From the NCBI GenBank assembly GCA_027858915.1, contig JAQIBT010000110.1:124001-188000 (forward strand): a stretch of 64,000 nt of DNA. Direction: 5' to 3'. Source of the DNA: Salinisphaera sp. (lineage in GTDB: Bacteria; Pseudomonadota; Gammaproteobacteria; Nevskiales; Salinisphaeraceae). A program made the translations under genes and the position numbers. Positions 57,756 to 64,000 of the stretch are shown here, in pieces; positions within the stretch are counted from its first letter, which is position 1; every line of letters begins with the position of its first letter. Under the pieces are notes generated by a model, which ran no database searches, was not told the DNA's origin, and worked only from the letters and a program-made list of their open reading frames with translations.

Positions 57756-58712
57756 ATATACTACGGGAACTTTTTTTATTTATTCAATTCAATAGCTTGT
57801 ATAATATTCTTTCCAGTTTTATGCACGGCCATTGAAAAACAATGAGATACGTGCTGATTTCGGGAAGAGCCAGAGAGTCGTTTGACGCGACACTGGCCAT
57901 ACCAGCTCTCCGAAGAAGAGCAGATGCAGATCGTCGCACATCGCCAGAGAGCGGTATATCTACTGAGCCATTCGACGAGATGAACGCCTGATTGGCCTAT
58001 TTTGCAGATTCGACACAAAACGCATCGAAGCGTACGCATGAGCAACTGCATGGCCGCCGTATCGGGCAGTCAGCTTGTCGTGTCATGGGCTATGCGCGCG
58101 CGCAGTGCCGCGTCCCCGAGGCGCGTGACGGCGCGCTTAAAGAACGCCTCGAACTCCGGATCGGCAACTACGTCTGAGCCTCGGCCAGTTCTTATCGGTG
58201 AGGATTCTTCGATGCGCCGCAGGCTCGTGTCGTGTTGGTGTGCCGGCTCACGATACGAGCTGCTCTTCCTGAAATCAACACTGTAAAGCGGAACGGCAAC
58301 AATCCCGCGACTAAGGTGGGATACCTCGCTCCATCGCTGCCGGCCAAACTCGGTCAAGTATTACGAGCCCATCACTCCTGTGTAAAGGCGAAATCGGTCC
58401 GATGCATGAGCGCAGAGGACGTGGGCAAAAGATCACCACACTGATATCCGCCAGGTTGCCTCAGCTGACCTCGTTCGGCTTTTGGGTGAGTATGGCGATC
58501 GGGGCATCTTCATCGCCTGTGTGCTGATATTTCGCCTCGGCGTCGTCGGCGAGTTGGCTTATCTGCTGGGCTCGCGCCCCGCACTGCCAGTAGCTGGCGA
58601 AATTTCGTGCACGCAAGCGCAGGAATCGGCAAGAAGCAGAGCCTGGTGCCAGCCCGGAGCGAACCGAGCTTCCGGCGCCGCTCAAACGATAGCCTATGAA
58701 GGAAGTATTCTC
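57756..58712. other. Low-coding stretch, possible gene remnants
   Basis: Nearly 1 kb with AT-rich sequence just after the half-tRNA (57770-57830), then ordinary GC. Short open frames on both strands (for example minus 57776-58051 and 58070-58357) have no recognised similarity. The layout suggests island debris. No complete gene can be supported. Confidence 0.5.
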
Positions 58713-59960
58713 ATGCGAATCAAAGCATTATCCATAACACTCGGCGCGGGTTTGATCGCGCTCACTAGCTTGGGCGCGTCTGCCGCCGGTGTCTCTGGCG
58801 GTGTTGTCAAGATCGGCGTTTTGACCGACATGTCGGGCGTCTACGCCACAGGCACCGGCAAGGGCTCGGTCGCGGCCGCGCAAATGGCGATCGAGGATTT
58901 CGGTGGTACCGTACTCGGCAAGCCGATCAAGCTGGTCTCGGCCGATCATCAGGACAAGCCCGATCTGGCCTCGTCGATCGCCCGCCGGTGGATCGACAGC
59001 CAAGGCGTGGACATGATCACCGACCTGGTGACCTCATCGATCGGCATTGCAGTGCAACAACTCGCCTCGAACAAGCACGTACTGACCTTCAACACCGGCG
59101 CCGGCACGACCGCCCTGACCAACAAGTACTGCACGCCGTATGGCATCCATTATGTCTACGACACCTATGCGCTGCCCACGGGCACCGCAACGGCCGTGGT
59201 CAAGAACGGCGGCAAGTCGTGGTTTTTCATCACCGCGGACTATGAGTTCGGTCATTCGCTCCAAGAGAACACCACACGGGTGGTGAAAAAACTAGGCGGC
59301 ACCGTGGTTGGCCACATTGATGCGCCGCTTTCGACCAACGATTTCTCGTCGTATCTACTCCAGGCGCAAGGCTCGGGCGCGCAGGTGATCGCGCTGGCCA
59401 ACGCCGGCCAGGATTTTTCTAATGCGGTCAGTCAGGCCCACGAGTTCGGCATCACCCAAGGCGGCCAGCAAATTGTCGCCCTGCTAGCGACCCTGCCCGA
59501 CGTAAAGGCGCTGGCCAGGAAAGACGCCGCAGGCCTGATGCTGACGACAGCGTTCTACTGGAATCGCACGCCAGGGTCCCGCGCCTTCGCCAAGCGTTTC
59601 TACAAGAAGGTGGGCGCCATGCCAGACATGATCCAGGCCGGCGACTACTCCGCAGTGATGACCTATCTCAAGGCAGTCAAGGCAGCGGGCACCGATGACG
59701 CTGACGCGGTGCGCAAGCAGCTCGCTCGTACGACCGTAAAGGACATGTTCACCGACAATGGCCATATCCGCGCCGACGGCCTCATGGTGCACGACATGTA
59801 TCTGGTTCAGGTCAAGAAGGCGGCGGATTCCTCCGGGCCCTGGGATCTGTACCGTATCGTGCGTACCATTCCCGGCGATCAGGCGTTTCAACCCATGGCC
59901 CAAGGCTCCTGTGCGCTGTCTAAGCCTTCGGCGAGCTCGGGAAAGTCCGATTCGCCATAG
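58713..59960 (+). CDS. ABC transporter substrate-binding protein (Leu/Ile/Val-binding-like)
   Basis: This 415-aa protein has a signal peptide (ALSITLGAGLIALTSLGASAA). The periplasmic-binding type 1 fold begins VVKIGVLTDMSGVYATGTGKGS and continues with KLVSADHQDKPDLASSIARRWID and WFFITADYEFGHSLQ, matching Peripla_BP_6 receptors for amino acids, urea or aromatic acids. The ATG at 58713 has GGAAG ten bases upstream. No permease or ATPase genes are next to it, so it is an orphan here. Its 3' end runs into a degraded crotonase gene on the other strand. Confidence 0.87.
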   Translation: MRIKALSITLGAGLIALTSLGASAAGVSGGVVKIGVLTDMSGVYATGTGKGSVAAAQMAIEDFGGTVLGKPIKLVSADHQDKPDLASSIARRWIDSQGVDMITDLVTSSIGIAVQQLASNKHVLTFNTGAGTTALTNKYCTPYGIHYVYDTYALPTGTATAVVKNGGKSWFFITADYEFGHSLQENTTRVVKKLGGTVVGHIDAPLSTNDFSSYLLQAQGSGAQVIALANAGQDFSNAVSQAHEFGITQGGQQIVALLATLPDVKALARKDAAGLMLTTAFYWNRTPGSRAFAKRFYKKVGAMPDMIQAGDYSAVMTYLKAVKAAGTDDADAVRKQLARTTVKDMFTDNGHIRADGLMVHDMYLVQVKKAADSSGPWDLYRIVRTIPGDQAFQPMAQGSCALSKPSASSGKSDSP

Positions 59961-60286
59961 GCGTATTCGCCAGACGCGGCAATTGGCTTGTTGAGATGAA
60001 TCATCTGCTCCAGCTAGCGGTGATGAAGTCGCATCTGATCCTGACGTCTCGCGAGCTGATCGCGGGCGTCAAGCATGACCCTGATATGGCCGGGGAAAGG
60101 CCCCGCCAGCCACGATGATCATGAGCGCGCGCACATCATCGGGGTCACGCACAGTGATCACCGCCTCGGCAAGTTGATCGGTTATGAGCGCGCTGAACGC
60201 ATTGTCTACTTGAGCCGATTGAGCATAATCGTGGCCACGCCTTGGGCGTCCGTCGCGTATTCGATGTGCGTACGCGTGTCATCGCC
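59950..60286 (-). pseudogene. Enoyl-CoA hydratase/isomerase (crotonase) remnant
   Basis: On the minus strand crotonase-like text appears in pieces: THIEYATDAQGVATIMLNRLK then a TAG. One base later the frame reads NAFSALITDQLAEAVITVRDPDDVRALMIIVAGGAF. A further shift gives IRVMLDARDQLARRQDQMR, then a stop. LEQMIHLNKPIAAS-GEYAYG ends it. At least two frameshifts and two stops are needed, and the C-terminal half is missing. It directly follows the citryl-CoA-lyase-like gene and was probably the last gene of that operon. Confidence 0.65.
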
Positions 60287-61072
60287 CTATTCCGGCCGAA
60301 TATGTGCAGTAGCCTCATCCTCAACGCGCTGCCACAGTTCCACTGCCATCGGGTTTTCGGATTCCTCGAGGATGTGACCAACCAGGCCGATGGCACGCGC
60401 CATAACGCCGAAGCCACGCACGATATGTCCCGGGAAACCGAACTCGCAGCAGATCGCTCCGATCGCGCCGGTGGCGTTGATCGGCAGCTGCTTGCCATAC
60501 GCTGATTCGGCCTCTGCATGTATCTTGCCCAGGAGTTGGACATAGCGGCCTGACATGCCGTTTTCCTCGGCGATAGTGAACAGCCTCGGGGTGCGCGGAT
60601 CGACTGGCTTGTGCAGCGGATGCCCCAGGCCGGGAATGATTTGCCCGCGCGCCCGGTAATCGGCCACCGTATGTTTGGCAATCGCATCCAGATCCACGTC
60701 GTCTGACGCACCCTGCGGCAGCCCCTCGTAGAGCATCTTCGCCGCGCCTTCCATACTGCCAACAAAGACAGTCCCTAAGCCACAAAGACCTGCGGCGACG
60801 GCTGCCTGCAACGATTCCGGCGCGCCGGCATAGGTCAATCGGGCGGCCAGTGCTGAGGGCGTGATGCCATGCTCGACCAAGGTGATGACAATGGCATTGA
60901 ACACCTTCGACTCAGCCTCGCTCGGTGTCTTTCCCGTCACCTGCAGGTACGCCAGGTCACCGAGATTGAAGTGCCCGAGTATATCGTCGGGCAAGCTTTT
61001 GCCGCGCACCTCGATGCGGTCGCGCGTGCTCCAGGCGATATCGGAACGGATGGGCTTGGATTGCCGGCTCAT
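60287..61072 (-). CDS. Citrate-synthase-fold protein, citryl-CoA-lyase-like
   Basis: This 261-aa protein starts MSRQSKPIRSDIAW behind a strong GAGGAG site. It matches the short citrate-synthase relatives annotated as citryl-CoA lyase: LGDLAYLQVTGKTPSEAE, IIPGLGHPLHKPVDPRTPRLF (catalytic His region), LPINATGAIGAICCEFGFPGH and RGFGVMARAIGLVGHILEE. Where citrate synthase has its catalytic Asp I see a Thr in NATG, so the chemistry is uncertain. It may cleave citryl-CoA or a similar hydroxyacyl-CoA to acetyl-CoA and an oxoacid. It lies between broken thioesterase and crotonase genes. Confidence 0.78.
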   Translation of the reverse strand: MSRQSKPIRSDIAWSTRDRIEVRGKSLPDDILGHFNLGDLAYLQVTGKTPSEAESKVFNAIVITLVEHGITPSALAARLTYAGAPESLQAAVAAGLCGLGTVFVGSMEGAAKMLYEGLPQGASDDVDLDAIAKHTVADYRARGQIIPGLGHPLHKPVDPRTPRLFTIAEENGMSGRYVQLLGKIHAEAESAYGKQLPINATGAIGAICCEFGFPGHIVRGFGVMARAIGLVGHILEESENPMAVELWQRVEDEATAHIRPE

Positions 61073-61095
61073 GGGAAGCTCCTCAGATGAAAACG

Positions 61096-61355
61096 TTACA
61101 AGTGAAAGCTCAGCGGGCGGCATCGTGTCGCGGATGCTTGCGAAAAGCGAACGAGCCACGCCCGGTGGCGAGGTGGCGCCGATCGGCATCGAACACATTG
61201 GCCACACCGACCCCAACCTGCCGGCCCTATTCGACCACCGAGGCGCTAGAATAGATACGCTCCTGGTCCGAGGGACGCAGGAAACTTACGTCGAGATCGA
61301 TCGTCAACGGGCCGATGTCGTACTGGAAGGCCGAACGCACGGCGGCGCCAAACAC
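61096..61355 (-). pseudogene. Hotdog-fold (PaaI-type) thioesterase remnant
   Basis: On the minus strand the text FGAAVRSAFQYDIGPLTIDLDVSFLRPSDQERIYSSASVVE, a TAG (61229-61227), then GRQVGVGVANVFDADRRHLATGRGSFRFSQ follows the PaaI/acyl-CoA thioesterase pattern. A stop also lies just before this segment. A possible HGG motif (LHGGLSAL) is at about 61480, next to the CoA-transferase stop, separated by about 100 bp of unrelated text. It therefore seems to be broken by an in-frame stop and a disrupted N-terminus. It sits between CoA-transferase B and the citryl-CoA-lyase-like gene. Confidence 0.65.
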
Positions 61356-61493
61356 CTAGCGATATCCTTGCGGCCACGTCGAAGCGCGTACATATTGTGC
61401 TGTACGGCTCGAACGGCAAGATCCTGGGGAAACGACGCGCATTTGCGACGACCGCCCGTTCGGATGACAGCGCGGATAGACCACCATGCAGGC

Positions 61494-62135
61494 TCAGGCG
61501 GGCGGCAGCAATCGAGCGCCCGTAAGTTGTTGAACCTCATCCAAGCTGTTCTCACCGTGCATCTCGATCACTTGGAAGCCGTTGTCGGTGATGTCGATCA
61601 CGGCAAGATCGGTATAGATGCGACTGACAACGCTGGCGCCGGTGAGCGGATAGCTGCACCGCTCAACAAGCTTGGGCGTGCCGTCCTTGTGCGTGTGGCG
61701 CGTGATCACGAATAGCTGTTTCGCACCTACCGCGAGATCCATGGCCCCACCAACGGCGGGCGGATAGATTTCGCTTCCAGTCGACCAGTTGGCGAGATCG
61801 CCATTCGCCGCAATCTGAAACGCGCCCAGCACGGAGATATCGATATGTCCGCCGCGCATCATTCCAAACGAGTCGGCTTGGTGAAAGAACGCGCCACCCG
61901 GTTGCATGGTGATGTACTGCTTGCTGGCGTTAATCAAGTCCGGATCTTCGGTGCCCGGCTCAGGTGCCGTACCAAAGCCGAGCACGCCGTTTTCGCTGTG
62001 ATAAATCACTTCCCGGCCGGCCGGCACGTGGTTGGCAACCTCAGTTGGCATGCCGATCCCGAGGTTGACATAGGCACCGTCTGGGATGTCCTGTGCGCAA
62101 CGCGCTGCGATCTGTTCAGGCGTGAAACGAATCAT
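61494..62135 (-). CDS. 3-oxoacid CoA-transferase subunit B
   Basis: This 213-aa beta subunit has the catalytic Glu motif HSENGVLGFG, an N-terminal YVNLGIGMPTEVANHVP and the GGAMDLAVGAKQLFV region, as in ScoB/PcaJ/AtoA. Family I CoA-transferases move CoA from an acyl-CoA to a free acid through a glutamyl-CoA intermediate. Its ATG overlaps the subunit A stop (ATGA). The substrate cannot be told. Confidence 0.92.
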   Translation of the reverse strand: MIRFTPEQIAARCAQDIPDGAYVNLGIGMPTEVANHVPAGREVIYHSENGVLGFGTAPEPGTEDPDLINASKQYITMQPGGAFFHQADSFGMMRGGHIDISVLGAFQIAANGDLANWSTGSEIYPPAVGGAMDLAVGAKQLFVITRHTHKDGTPKLVERCSYPLTGASVVSRIYTDLAVIDITDNGFQVIEMHGENSLDEVQQLTGARLLPPA

Positions 62136-62806
62136 ACGAATACCTGGTCGACTTCGATTACACGGTCGAGAAAAATGCCGGGGGTAACCACGCTTTCAGG
62201 ATCAAGCGCGCCCAATTCCACGATCTCGGAAACCTCCGCGATCACAGTTGTCGCGGCCGTTGCCATGATCGGATTAAAATTTCGGGCAGTGGTGTGGTAG
62301 ACGAGGTTGCCCCAGCGATCACCTTGACTGGCCTTGAGCAGGGCCACGTCAGCGGCCAGTGGGCGTTCGAATACGTACCCGACGCCGTCGATGACCTCGG
62401 TTCGCTTGCCTTTCGCCAATTCCGTGCCGTAACCGGTTGGCGTATAGAAGCCACCCAGGCCGGCGCCAGCTGCGCGTATACGCTCGGCCAACGTACCTTG
62501 AGGCACGAGTTCGAGATCTATCGCACGTTCCTCGTAGCGCCGCTCGAACCAGATCGAGCCGGGCGAACGCGGATAGGAACAGATGACTTTGGCGACCCGA
62601 TGCTCGCGCAACAGTTTGGCGACGCCGGTCTCGCCCACACCAGCATTGTTCGCGATGATCGTGAGTTCGCGTGCGCCCTGCTCGAGCAACGCATCGAGCA
62701 AATTAAAGGCAATACCCGAACTGCCGAAGCCGCCGCACATAACGGTAGCGCCGTCGCTGATAGGGCCGATGGCCTCGTTTATCGAATCGACGATTTTATT
62801 AACCAT
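62132..62806 (-). CDS. 3-oxoacid CoA-transferase subunit A
   Basis: This 224-aa alpha subunit begins MVNKIVDSINEAIGPISDGATVMCGGFGSSGIAFNLLDALLEQG, with the glycine-rich CoA-binding GGFGSSG. ANNAGVGETGVAKLLR and GGFYTPTGYGTELAKGK are further signatures of ScoA/PcaI/AtoD. A strong AAGGAG site precedes the ATG at 62806. It leads the minus-strand acyl-CoA operon. Confidence 0.92.
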   Translation of the reverse strand: MVNKIVDSINEAIGPISDGATVMCGGFGSSGIAFNLLDALLEQGARELTIIANNAGVGETGVAKLLREHRVAKVICSYPRSPGSIWFERRYEERAIDLELVPQGTLAERIRAAGAGLGGFYTPTGYGTELAKGKRTEVIDGVGYVFERPLAADVALLKASQGDRWGNLVYHTTARNFNPIMATAATTVIAEVSEIVELGALDPESVVTPGIFLDRVIEVDQVFV

Positions 62807-63190
62807 GCGCGTGTTTCTCCTTAGCTGCGAAGCATCGGTGTTCCGGATCGTCGAGCGCCGCCTGGCGATTGTTGCACCTTTGAGCCGCATGCGCGCATTG
62901 CAGGCTTAGTGCCCGGCATTTCCGCCGGATCGTTCGCCCCCTCTTTGGGAATCACGTCGAATACCTACACACCATAGGGTCTTTCCTGTGGTATCCGCGG
63001 CGGCTTTGTCTGCGGCCAGTGGAGATCGAGCAGGGTAGAAGATTTTTCGCGCTGTAAATTGCACGCCACGCTGCTCAGCTGGCCGGTGGGACAGCGTTTG
63101 AAGAGCGCTTGCGCCGGCTCTATCTCAAAGGCACTCTAAGATGCTGGACGTATATAGCGTCGAAACGGGCTTGTTCTGATGCATCCATAT
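62807..63190. other. Non-coding stretch upstream of the CoA-transferase operon
   Basis: About 380 bp without a supported gene; it should hold the promoter of the minus-strand operon. The text around 63070-63140 has a short plus-strand coding look (GTAFEERLRRLYLKGTL) but no start or family match. Confidence 0.45.
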
Positions 63191-63240
63191 CACTTCTCCT
63201 TCGAGGATTCGCACCCGGGCTTGGGTGTGAAGGAGAAGTG
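63191..63240. repeat. Large two-stage stem-loop
   Basis: CACTTCTCCTTC (63191-63202) and GAAGGAGAAGTG (63229-63240) are perfect 12-bp inverted repeats. Inside them CACCC (63212-63216) pairs with GGGTG (63223-63227) around GGGCTT. There is no T-run, so it is not a simple terminator. It lies just before the cassette-like region. Confidence 0.75.
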
Positions 63241-63294
63241 TGTCGTTTTGGCGTCCTGTTTCTTAGCGGGTTGTTCCTGCCGCGGAGCGGCTTC

Positions 63295-63393
63295 GTTCAA
63301 CGAGTCGCTGCAGTGGATCGCCCAAAGCGGTGCCGCGCTTCGGGTTCTCTACGCGGCCTTCGGCTCCGGCGGCATTGAGCTTTGGCGTTAGGC
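63295..63393 (+). other. Candidate integron recombination site (attC-like) upstream of the NTF2-like gene
   Basis: The segment ends in the core site GTTAGGC (63387-63393), which fits GTTRRRY. A stem can form: GCCCAAAGC with GCTTTGGC, and TGCCGC with GCGGCA inside it. A possible RYYYAAC core (GTTCAAC) begins at 63295. The structure fits an attC site of about 75-99 bp, though the left core is not a strong complement of the right core. Confidence 0.5.
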
Positions 63394-63425
63394 GTCTTCG
63401 AACGCATCAACCCGGAGAGATCGCT

Positions 63426-63815
63426 ATGACAATTGATACGCTGTCTACCTGGCATGCACTCGTAGAGTCACGGAACGCGAAGGGCCTCAACTCGCTCCTT
63501 GCAGACAACGTAGTCTTCCACTCACCTGTCGTTCATACGCCGCAGGTCGGAAAGGCAATCACGGTTCAATACCTTTCTGCCGCGTTCCACGTTTTCTTCA
63601 ACGAGTCTTTCAAGTACGTTCGAGAAGTCACTGGTCCTGCCGACGCAGTGCTGGAGTTCCAGGTAGAAATCGATGCCATCAGCGTCAACGGCGTTGATAT
63701 GCTCAAGTGGGACGGCGAGGGAAAAATCGTTGAATTCAAGGTACTGATTCGTCCACTCAAGGCGATTAACTTGATCCATCAGAAAATGGCAGCAATGCTC
63801 CACGCCAAGCAGTAG
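63426..63815 (+). CDS. NTF2/SnoaL-like protein in a probable gene cassette
   Basis: This 129-aa protein has the SnoaL/NTF2 cone fold pattern: STWHALVESRNAKGLNSLLADNVVFHSP at the start, HTPQVGKAITVQYLSAAF, and VDMLKWDGEGKIVEFKVLIRPLKAIN near the end. A ribosome site (GGAGAG) precedes the ATG by seven bases. It is flanked by GTTAGGCGTC (63387-63396) and the inverse GACGCCTAAC (63825-63834), core sites of integron cassettes. NTF2-like genes are common cassette cargo. The catalytic role is not clear. Confidence 0.75.
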   Translation: MTIDTLSTWHALVESRNAKGLNSLLADNVVFHSPVVHTPQVGKAITVQYLSAAFHVFFNESFKYVREVTGPADAVLEFQVEIDAISVNGVDMLKWDGEGKIVEFKVLIRPLKAINLIHQKMAAMLHAKQ

Positions 63816-63827
63816 GCAAATACAGAC

Positions 63828-63859
63828 GCCTAACCCGTCCCTTATGTCGGACGTTGGAT
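63828..63859 (+). other. Short attC-like site downstream of the NTF2-like gene
   Basis: GCCTAAC (63828-63834) matches the RYYYAAC core and GTTGGAT (63853-63859) the GTTRRRY core. CGTCC (63836-63840) can pair with GGACG (63849-63853). At 32 bp it is shorter than classical attC sites (usually at least 55 bp), so it may be truncated. The remaining 140 bases of the window hold no supported gene. Confidence 0.45.
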
Positions 63860-64000
63860 TTACTGTTCAAGGTAGGGGGCGTATTGTTATAACTACGAGT
63901 TCCGCAGAGCCTCGATCGTCGGTACAACTGCAGAAAAGGTCTTGAAGGAAGCATTCCGTTCATCTGCCGCCGAGCGGCGGTGACCGTCGCTCGCGACACG

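Follow-up and report, generated by a model that had tools for sequence, protein, structure and literature searches.

How an integron gene cassette came to lie near the right-hand end of the window (the whole stretch of DNA analysed, 64,000 nt of Salinisphaera sp., positions 124001–188000 of contig C160), and what borders it on the left, are the questions raised by this locus. A first-pass annotation had placed a probable integron gene cassette encoding an NTF2-like protein at 63295–63859. The order of elements in this interval was GTTCAAC ... GTTAGGC, a 129-aa gene, and GCCTAAC ... GTTGGAT. Taken as a whole, the locus is very probably a stranded cassette: an IS91-type element would have inserted at R'' of the upstream attC, with decay following later. 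The features are collected in Table 1.

Table 1. Features at the right-hand end of the window (window coordinates)
Feature	Position	Strand	Evidence
Terminus remnant of an IS91-type element with tyrosine recombinase; end hairpin CCTGCCGCGGAGCGGCTTCGTTC	63134–63298	-	88% identity to contig C110; copy comparison
Start of truncated recombinase gene (22 codons, then stop)	63120–63188	-	Comparison with C110 recombinase
Hybrid R''-like box GTTCAAC	63295–63301	+	Copy comparison
Genus-type attC without original RYYY; R' GTTAGGC at 63387–63393	63299–63393	+	Covariance model match at 63299–63397
Cassette, TTAGGC through the last base of its attC remnant	63388–63859	+	Exact 10-base complement of ends
SnoaL_2/NTF2-like protein, 129 aa	63426–63815	+	Pfam SnoaL_2
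attC of a different type, lacking its middle; R'' GCCTAAC at 63828–63834, R' GTTGGAT at 63853–63859	63828–63859	+	Motif patterns, related sites
Start of transposase segment	63983–64000 (on to the contig end; 63983–64101 in window numbering)	-	Full identity with the contig end of C42

The inverted 10-bp pair noted in the first-pass annotation as bracketing the gene was an exact complement: GTTAGGCGTC (63387–63396) and GACGCCTAAC (63825–63834) matched at 10 of 10 bases, as a circular cassette requires of its two ends. The start codon (ATG at 63426) lies 29 bases after GTTAGGCGTC. The open reading frame thus sits between the R' (GTTRRRY) of one attC and an attC of its own with a complementary R''; by convention, the last bases of the latter, TTGGAT, are assigned to the next cassette. 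The encoded protein matched SnoaL_2 in Pfam (PF12680, E 1.3e-7), in agreement with the NTF2-like assignment; going by the family name, its role might be guessed to be that of a small-molecule cyclase or isomerase. It shared 91% identity with a Caenimonas soli protein and 87% with a Caldimonas mangrovi protein, compared with 60–64% for relatives named Salinisphaera, from which we infer a Burkholderiales-like origin for the gene. Of 107 homologue loci 80 were kept, and none of these showed both cassette ends around the gene (GTTRRRY within 90 bases upstream and RYYYAAC within 110 downstream). The attC-like motif CTAACCCNTCCMTCGAG, allowing one mismatch, was found right after the stop codon in two of the 80 (L049, from Caldimonas, and L055, from a Burkholderiales metagenome-assembled genome), and nowhere else in the loci. 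It is the same attC-like start as that of the downstream site of the window, a hint that elsewhere, too, the gene has been carried as a cassette. The cassette region had no match in the phage collection and one among plasmids, in Variovorax.

The segment upstream of the gene had been thought to fold like an attC. Generic folding of the sites gave weak results (upstream z -0.85 and +0.26), no Rfam match was present at 58000–64000 at E ≤ 5, and the upstream site reached p 0.31 in the arm-pairing test described below. Since generic folding lent no support, a covariance model was built from 19 attC sites of six other genomes of the genus, running from AAC to just beyond R'. Scoring with such a model, as the first-pass annotation had proposed, gave 83.9 bits (E 7.2e-26) for 63299–63397; the next best match in the 64-kb window reached 15.1 bits, and the maximum in control DNA (30 of the 80 homologue loci) was 16.2 bits. 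The upstream segment is therefore an attC, its identity resting on homology to the sites of the genus. With this attC, the remnant downstream and the complementary ends, the reading as an integron gene cassette was borne out.

No complete attC follows the SnoaL-like gene. Both ends of one are there, 32 bases in total, and the middle is gone: GCCTAACCCGTCC is followed immediately by CTTATGTCGGACGTTGGAT. Patterns composed after inspection of this site and of related ones were used to search the window; the left half, RYYTAACCCNTCC, occurred once (0.03 expected), and so did the right half, CTYATGTCRRACGTTRRRY (0.00 expected), directly adjoining it. Related sites in IMG/VR contigs read GCCTAACCCTTCCATCGAG...CTCATTTCGGACGTTAGGC, and in one contig the start motif was matched four times. 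Truncation by a transposable element, leaving half an attC, was also considered for this site and rejected, because the IMG/VR sites show that both ends were kept. Further right, the 119 bases at 63983–64101 recurred without mismatch at the end of contig C42, and the first frame of the C42 transposase segment matched HTH_Tnp_1; by eye, the segment is IS3-like. The contig ends at 188101, 101 bases beyond the window and inside this transposase gene, where the assembly is broken; the cassette may be either the edge of an array or a lone one. The region to the left of the cassette has two genes for CoA transferases and one for a citrate-synthase-like protein, a neighbourhood that we take as ordinary chromosome.

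The left edge is of a different nature. The GTTCAAC with which the interval begins is not a native R''; it marks the fusion of an IS91-type element end with the attC. Positions 63134–63296 were 88% identical to positions 2465–2626 of contig C110, and over residues 1–18 of the C110 recombinase the truncated gene of the window matched at 78%. The C110 element carries a gene for a tyrosine recombinase (Phage_integrase, Phage_int_SAM_4) and one for an IS91-type transposase (Y2_Tnp, Zn_Tnp_IS91); the latter matched NF033538 at E 4.8e-106 and has the Y2 HUH and zinc-binding domains of the IS91 family. An element of this type, now mostly deleted, thus forms a junction with the attC at the left edge. 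In the hybrid box, GTTCAA probably comes from the element and the final C from the attC, one to three bases being ambiguous; the AA was assigned to the element because distant elements at other sites also end in GTYCAA. The other end of the element was preceded by GCCCAAC in C110, GCCTAAC in C2 and CCCTAAC in C162, all with the look of an R'' box. AAC, or part of it, is found on both sides of the element, which can be read as an overlap or as a duplication. Nine such left ends were read (C110, C2, C162, L181, L182, L183, L186, L194 and L195); AAC preceded the element in all nine and a strict RYYYAAC in four, although for four of the nine (L182, L186, L194 and L195) the search pattern itself started with AAC, L182 having also been read without such a pattern.

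To avoid any choice of motif, further copies were sought by protein similarity alone in 369 genomes of the class (E ≤ 1e-60). Nine genomes had a match, one of them being the present genome. In all eight others, the same hairpin terminus, ending in CGTYC, preceded the recombinase gene, and the bases that followed were AAC in six, AAT in one and AAA in one. A terminus pattern from which CAAC had been left out was found in three of the 369 genomes, each time with CAAC next; in viral contigs it was found in 11 stretches, with CAAC next in three and not in eight. The pattern AGCGGCTTCGTTCAAC gave 61 stretches in viral contigs; most of them lacked the hairpin and looked by eye like coding sequence of phages. 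The recombinases of the nearest plasmid relatives (H2–H7) were 50–55% identical. In the Escherichia coli record NZ_LT985243, aadA1 and qacEdelta1 stand on either side of the element, whose flanks read TGTCTAAC and AACAATTCGTTCAAGCC; the uninterrupted aadA1 attC in NZ_CP019647 reads TGTCTAACAATTCGTTCAAGCC, and the two flanks are its two parts. A megablast search with this element against 5,426 E. coli genomes gave no match, and at low stringency matches were found in nine plasmid records. For the Photobacterium record NZ_CP150465, the flank is a repeat that occurs 563 times across 183 plasmid records, of which 128 are Vibrio, with as many as 40 occurrences in a single record; in the 14 non-self matches listed, the match always begins at AAC. 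Such a distribution is as would be expected of attC arrays.

Whether the flanks of these elements are attC sites was assessed with a pairing score, in which the first 26 flank bases were compared with an arm preceding a GTT 38–140 bases onward; the background was formed by 9,139 AAC positions from the 80 loci with homologues. The sensitivity of the test was 48 of 68 known attC sites of the genus at p < 0.01 (73 seeds, less five with no placeable AAC; sites of the present genome were included). At the same threshold 10 of 17 element ends passed: six of the eight protein-selected copies of the class, three of the seven plasmid ends, and the IMG/VR end L235. The copies selected by protein were thus found in attC above expectation. 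The seven that failed were the window, L182, L183, L194, L195, L186 and L189. Among these, the class copies L186 and L189 had p values of 0.15 and 0.34, L189 resembling a short attC by eye. Of the plasmid ends, L194 is the NZ_CP150465 repeat, L182 is similar to that repeat by eye and L183 was borderline at p 0.086. The remaining one, L195 from Photobacterium ganghwense, lies in a site that is not an attC; nor is the element-free counterpart in Vibrio sp. dhg, with which its similarity starts at AAC. At this site (L195/L277), AAC still adjoins the junction, and a short AAC...GTT stretch resembles a hairpin. Solo termini gave p values of 0.02 (L219), 0.45 (L212) and 0.37 (L265). Judging from these flanks, elements of the nearer clade usually lie inside an attC at one and the same base, rebuilding the R'' box.

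Five distant elements, with recombinases 36–38% identical and the same GTYCAA end, had no flank passing even p 0.05 (0/5; p 0.07 to 0.60). Since their flanks fail the test, a preference for attC seems to be a property of the nearer clade. The loci L271–L275 have more distant IS91 elements with a tyrosine recombinase, from Alphaproteobacteria, Betaproteobacteria and Chloroflexota; these share a terminus TTGRACKAA beside a hairpin, and the sites that they occupy do not resemble attC.

The recombinase of the element had as its best NCBIfam match the integron integrase model TIGR02249, at 143.6 bits and thus below the cut-off of 265. An extra segment distinguishes IntI proteins. In the alignment it was present in IntI1 and in five Salinisphaera IntI proteins, and the element recombinases had a gap there. 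In a tree of 19 rows, the element recombinases formed a clade of seven with support 100/100 and the IntI proteins one of six with 100/99; L193, L185 and L187 had been dropped for want of a reading frame and L273 for a wrong frame, the XerD row starts from an internal methionine, and a long-branch warning applies. By alignment and tree, the element recombinase is not an IntI.

An integron integrase above the curated cut-off was found in 12 of the 14 genomes of the genus, the exceptions being G009 and the present one, G000. The first-pass annotation had seen no integrase in the window, and the same is true of the whole assembly at this cut-off; as this is a draft of 169 contigs, an intI gene may have been missed. 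The genus attC model found at least 18 sites in the genome (E ≤ 0.01, on 12 contigs; 17 at 29 bits or more), a lower bound, as 150 of 3656 candidates were scored. Stretches similar to 63000–64000 occur on contigs C107, C112, C49 and C2 of the same genome; all 14 genomes of the genus had matches to the cassette region, and the attC repeat forms arrays at loci from seven. What is present here is therefore not a complete integron with an intI gene, but attC sites without a neighbouring integrase (CALIN/SALIN). The annotation was to be abandoned if there were no attC score and no cassettes or integrase nearby; an integrase is indeed absent, while attC sites score and other cassettes occur elsewhere in the genome. 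One of these, on C107 (L010:4548-5432, minus strand), lies beside attC sites of the genus type; its product is an ion-channel protein (Ion_trans_2, E 2.2e-12) with a TTLGYGD stretch, which we take to be like a potassium-channel filter. The next C107 cassettes (L010:2033-3604, minus strand) include a protein with GmrSD_N and HNH domains, possibly an anti-phage nuclease. Seeming toxin-antitoxin pairs were seen by eye in the attC-flanked stretches L013:1130-2490 (C2), L012:740-1280 (C49) and L011:7200-7750 (C112).

The following course of events would account for the locus. A genus-type attC would have been followed by a cassette with the SnoaL-like gene from a Burkholderiales-like source. An element with a Y2/HUH transposase and a tyrosine recombinase would then have entered this attC at R'', most simply between RYYYAA and C. 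IntI cuts R' at G|TT, and G|TT is what the opposite strand would read at this insertion point. The element end GTYCAA, joined to the remaining C, would create a new R''-like box RYYYAAC (GTTCAAC or GTCCAAC), so that the attC would still look complete. Afterwards the element would have been mostly lost, the middle of the cassette's own attC would have disappeared, and a further transposable element would have come to lie on the right. As the genome lacks an integron integrase, the cassette is probably immobile.

The attC might instead have been a passenger, dragged along as neighbouring DNA by the one-ended rolling-circle transposition proposed for IS91 and ISCR elements. Passages of PMC9330008 describe IS91-type elements as mobilising flanking DNA, and the window retains nothing of the element but a terminus. 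Yet the type of attC varies from copy to copy and fits the host (genus type here, aadA1 in E. coli, a Vibrio-type repeat in Photobacterium), and in the aadA1 case one part of the attC stands on each side of the element, which makes this account improbable. Less probable still is that an integrase acting in trans placed a lone cassette at a secondary site and that the IS91-type terminus adjoins it by chance: single attC sites without an integrase are common in Shewanella, according to passages of PMC9229058, and this genome has its attC matches dispersed over many contigs, but genomes that are not related show this element end joined to attC at one and the same base.

Given the preferred reading, an insertion into the attC, the enzyme responsible could be either of the two that the element encodes. 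The Y2/HUH transposase alone may have picked the attC, by its single-stranded fold and a GTT-like target, the tyrosine recombinase having another task, such as resolving circles; IS91 uses GTTC/CTTG targets. The distant elements favour this assignment, as all five share the terminus and fail the attC test, so that the presence of a recombinase is not enough for targeting; against it stand the integron integrase as best match of the recombinase and a junction at the position where IntI cuts. We hold the chances of the transposase having acted alone to be about even. More tentatively, and with some doubt, the element might be a parasite of integrons: the joint of its circular form would carry a GTTRRRY-like box, which its own tyrosine recombinase would cross with the R'' of a folded attC at G|TT, rebuilding the attC and leaving the element in a new cassette that the host integrase could move. 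These last two estimates concern the choice of enzyme only and do not add up with that for the explanation as a whole.

A stranded cassette is in itself common; what is new here is the recurring junction of element and attC at its left edge. The locus resembles the SALIN/CALIN described in passages of PMC9229058 for Shewanella in having an attC and a cassette without intI, and differs in that the attC was apparently entered by an IS91-type element and that the next attC is internally deleted. In the same passages an IS91-like element, ISShvi3, is placed in a Shewanella integron, with no IS reported as interrupting an attC, whereas the junction here is read as an insertion; ISShvi3, compared here by its description, may or may not be the same element. 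No description of an IS91-type insertion into an attC was found in the open PMC literature, mainly in its listings and passages, where IS91-like elements are noted only beside attC. Such is ISCR28 of the sul4 modules, IS91-related and with attC at or right after gene/ISCR28 in the passages of PMC12772301, whose authors discuss passive shuffling with cassettes; it is likened to the present element by description only. Targeting of attC by IS1111-type elements is established, as passages of PMC11187229 relate. These IS1111-attC elements (ISKpn4, ISPst6) likewise target one attC end; they have a DEDD transposase, and the present element has Y2_Tnp and Phage_integrase. Elements that enter attC decide which cassettes stay mobile, including resistance cassettes on plasmids, and one that recreates the R'' box can pass for a mere neighbour of a complete attC and escape notice. 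Should a tyrosine recombinase other than IntI act on attC, it would be a second type of enzyme using such sites.

The group IIC-attC introns (passages of PMC9229058 and PMC7923331) are also invaders of attC, although as retroelements they work by an unrelated mechanism. An intron is present at the end of the C110 element as well: a group II intron with reverse transcriptase and maturase domains, and with RF00029 in its 3' part (L014:2620-4433), starts within the IS91-type terminus, directly after CTTCGT, where other copies continue with TCAAC or CCAAC.
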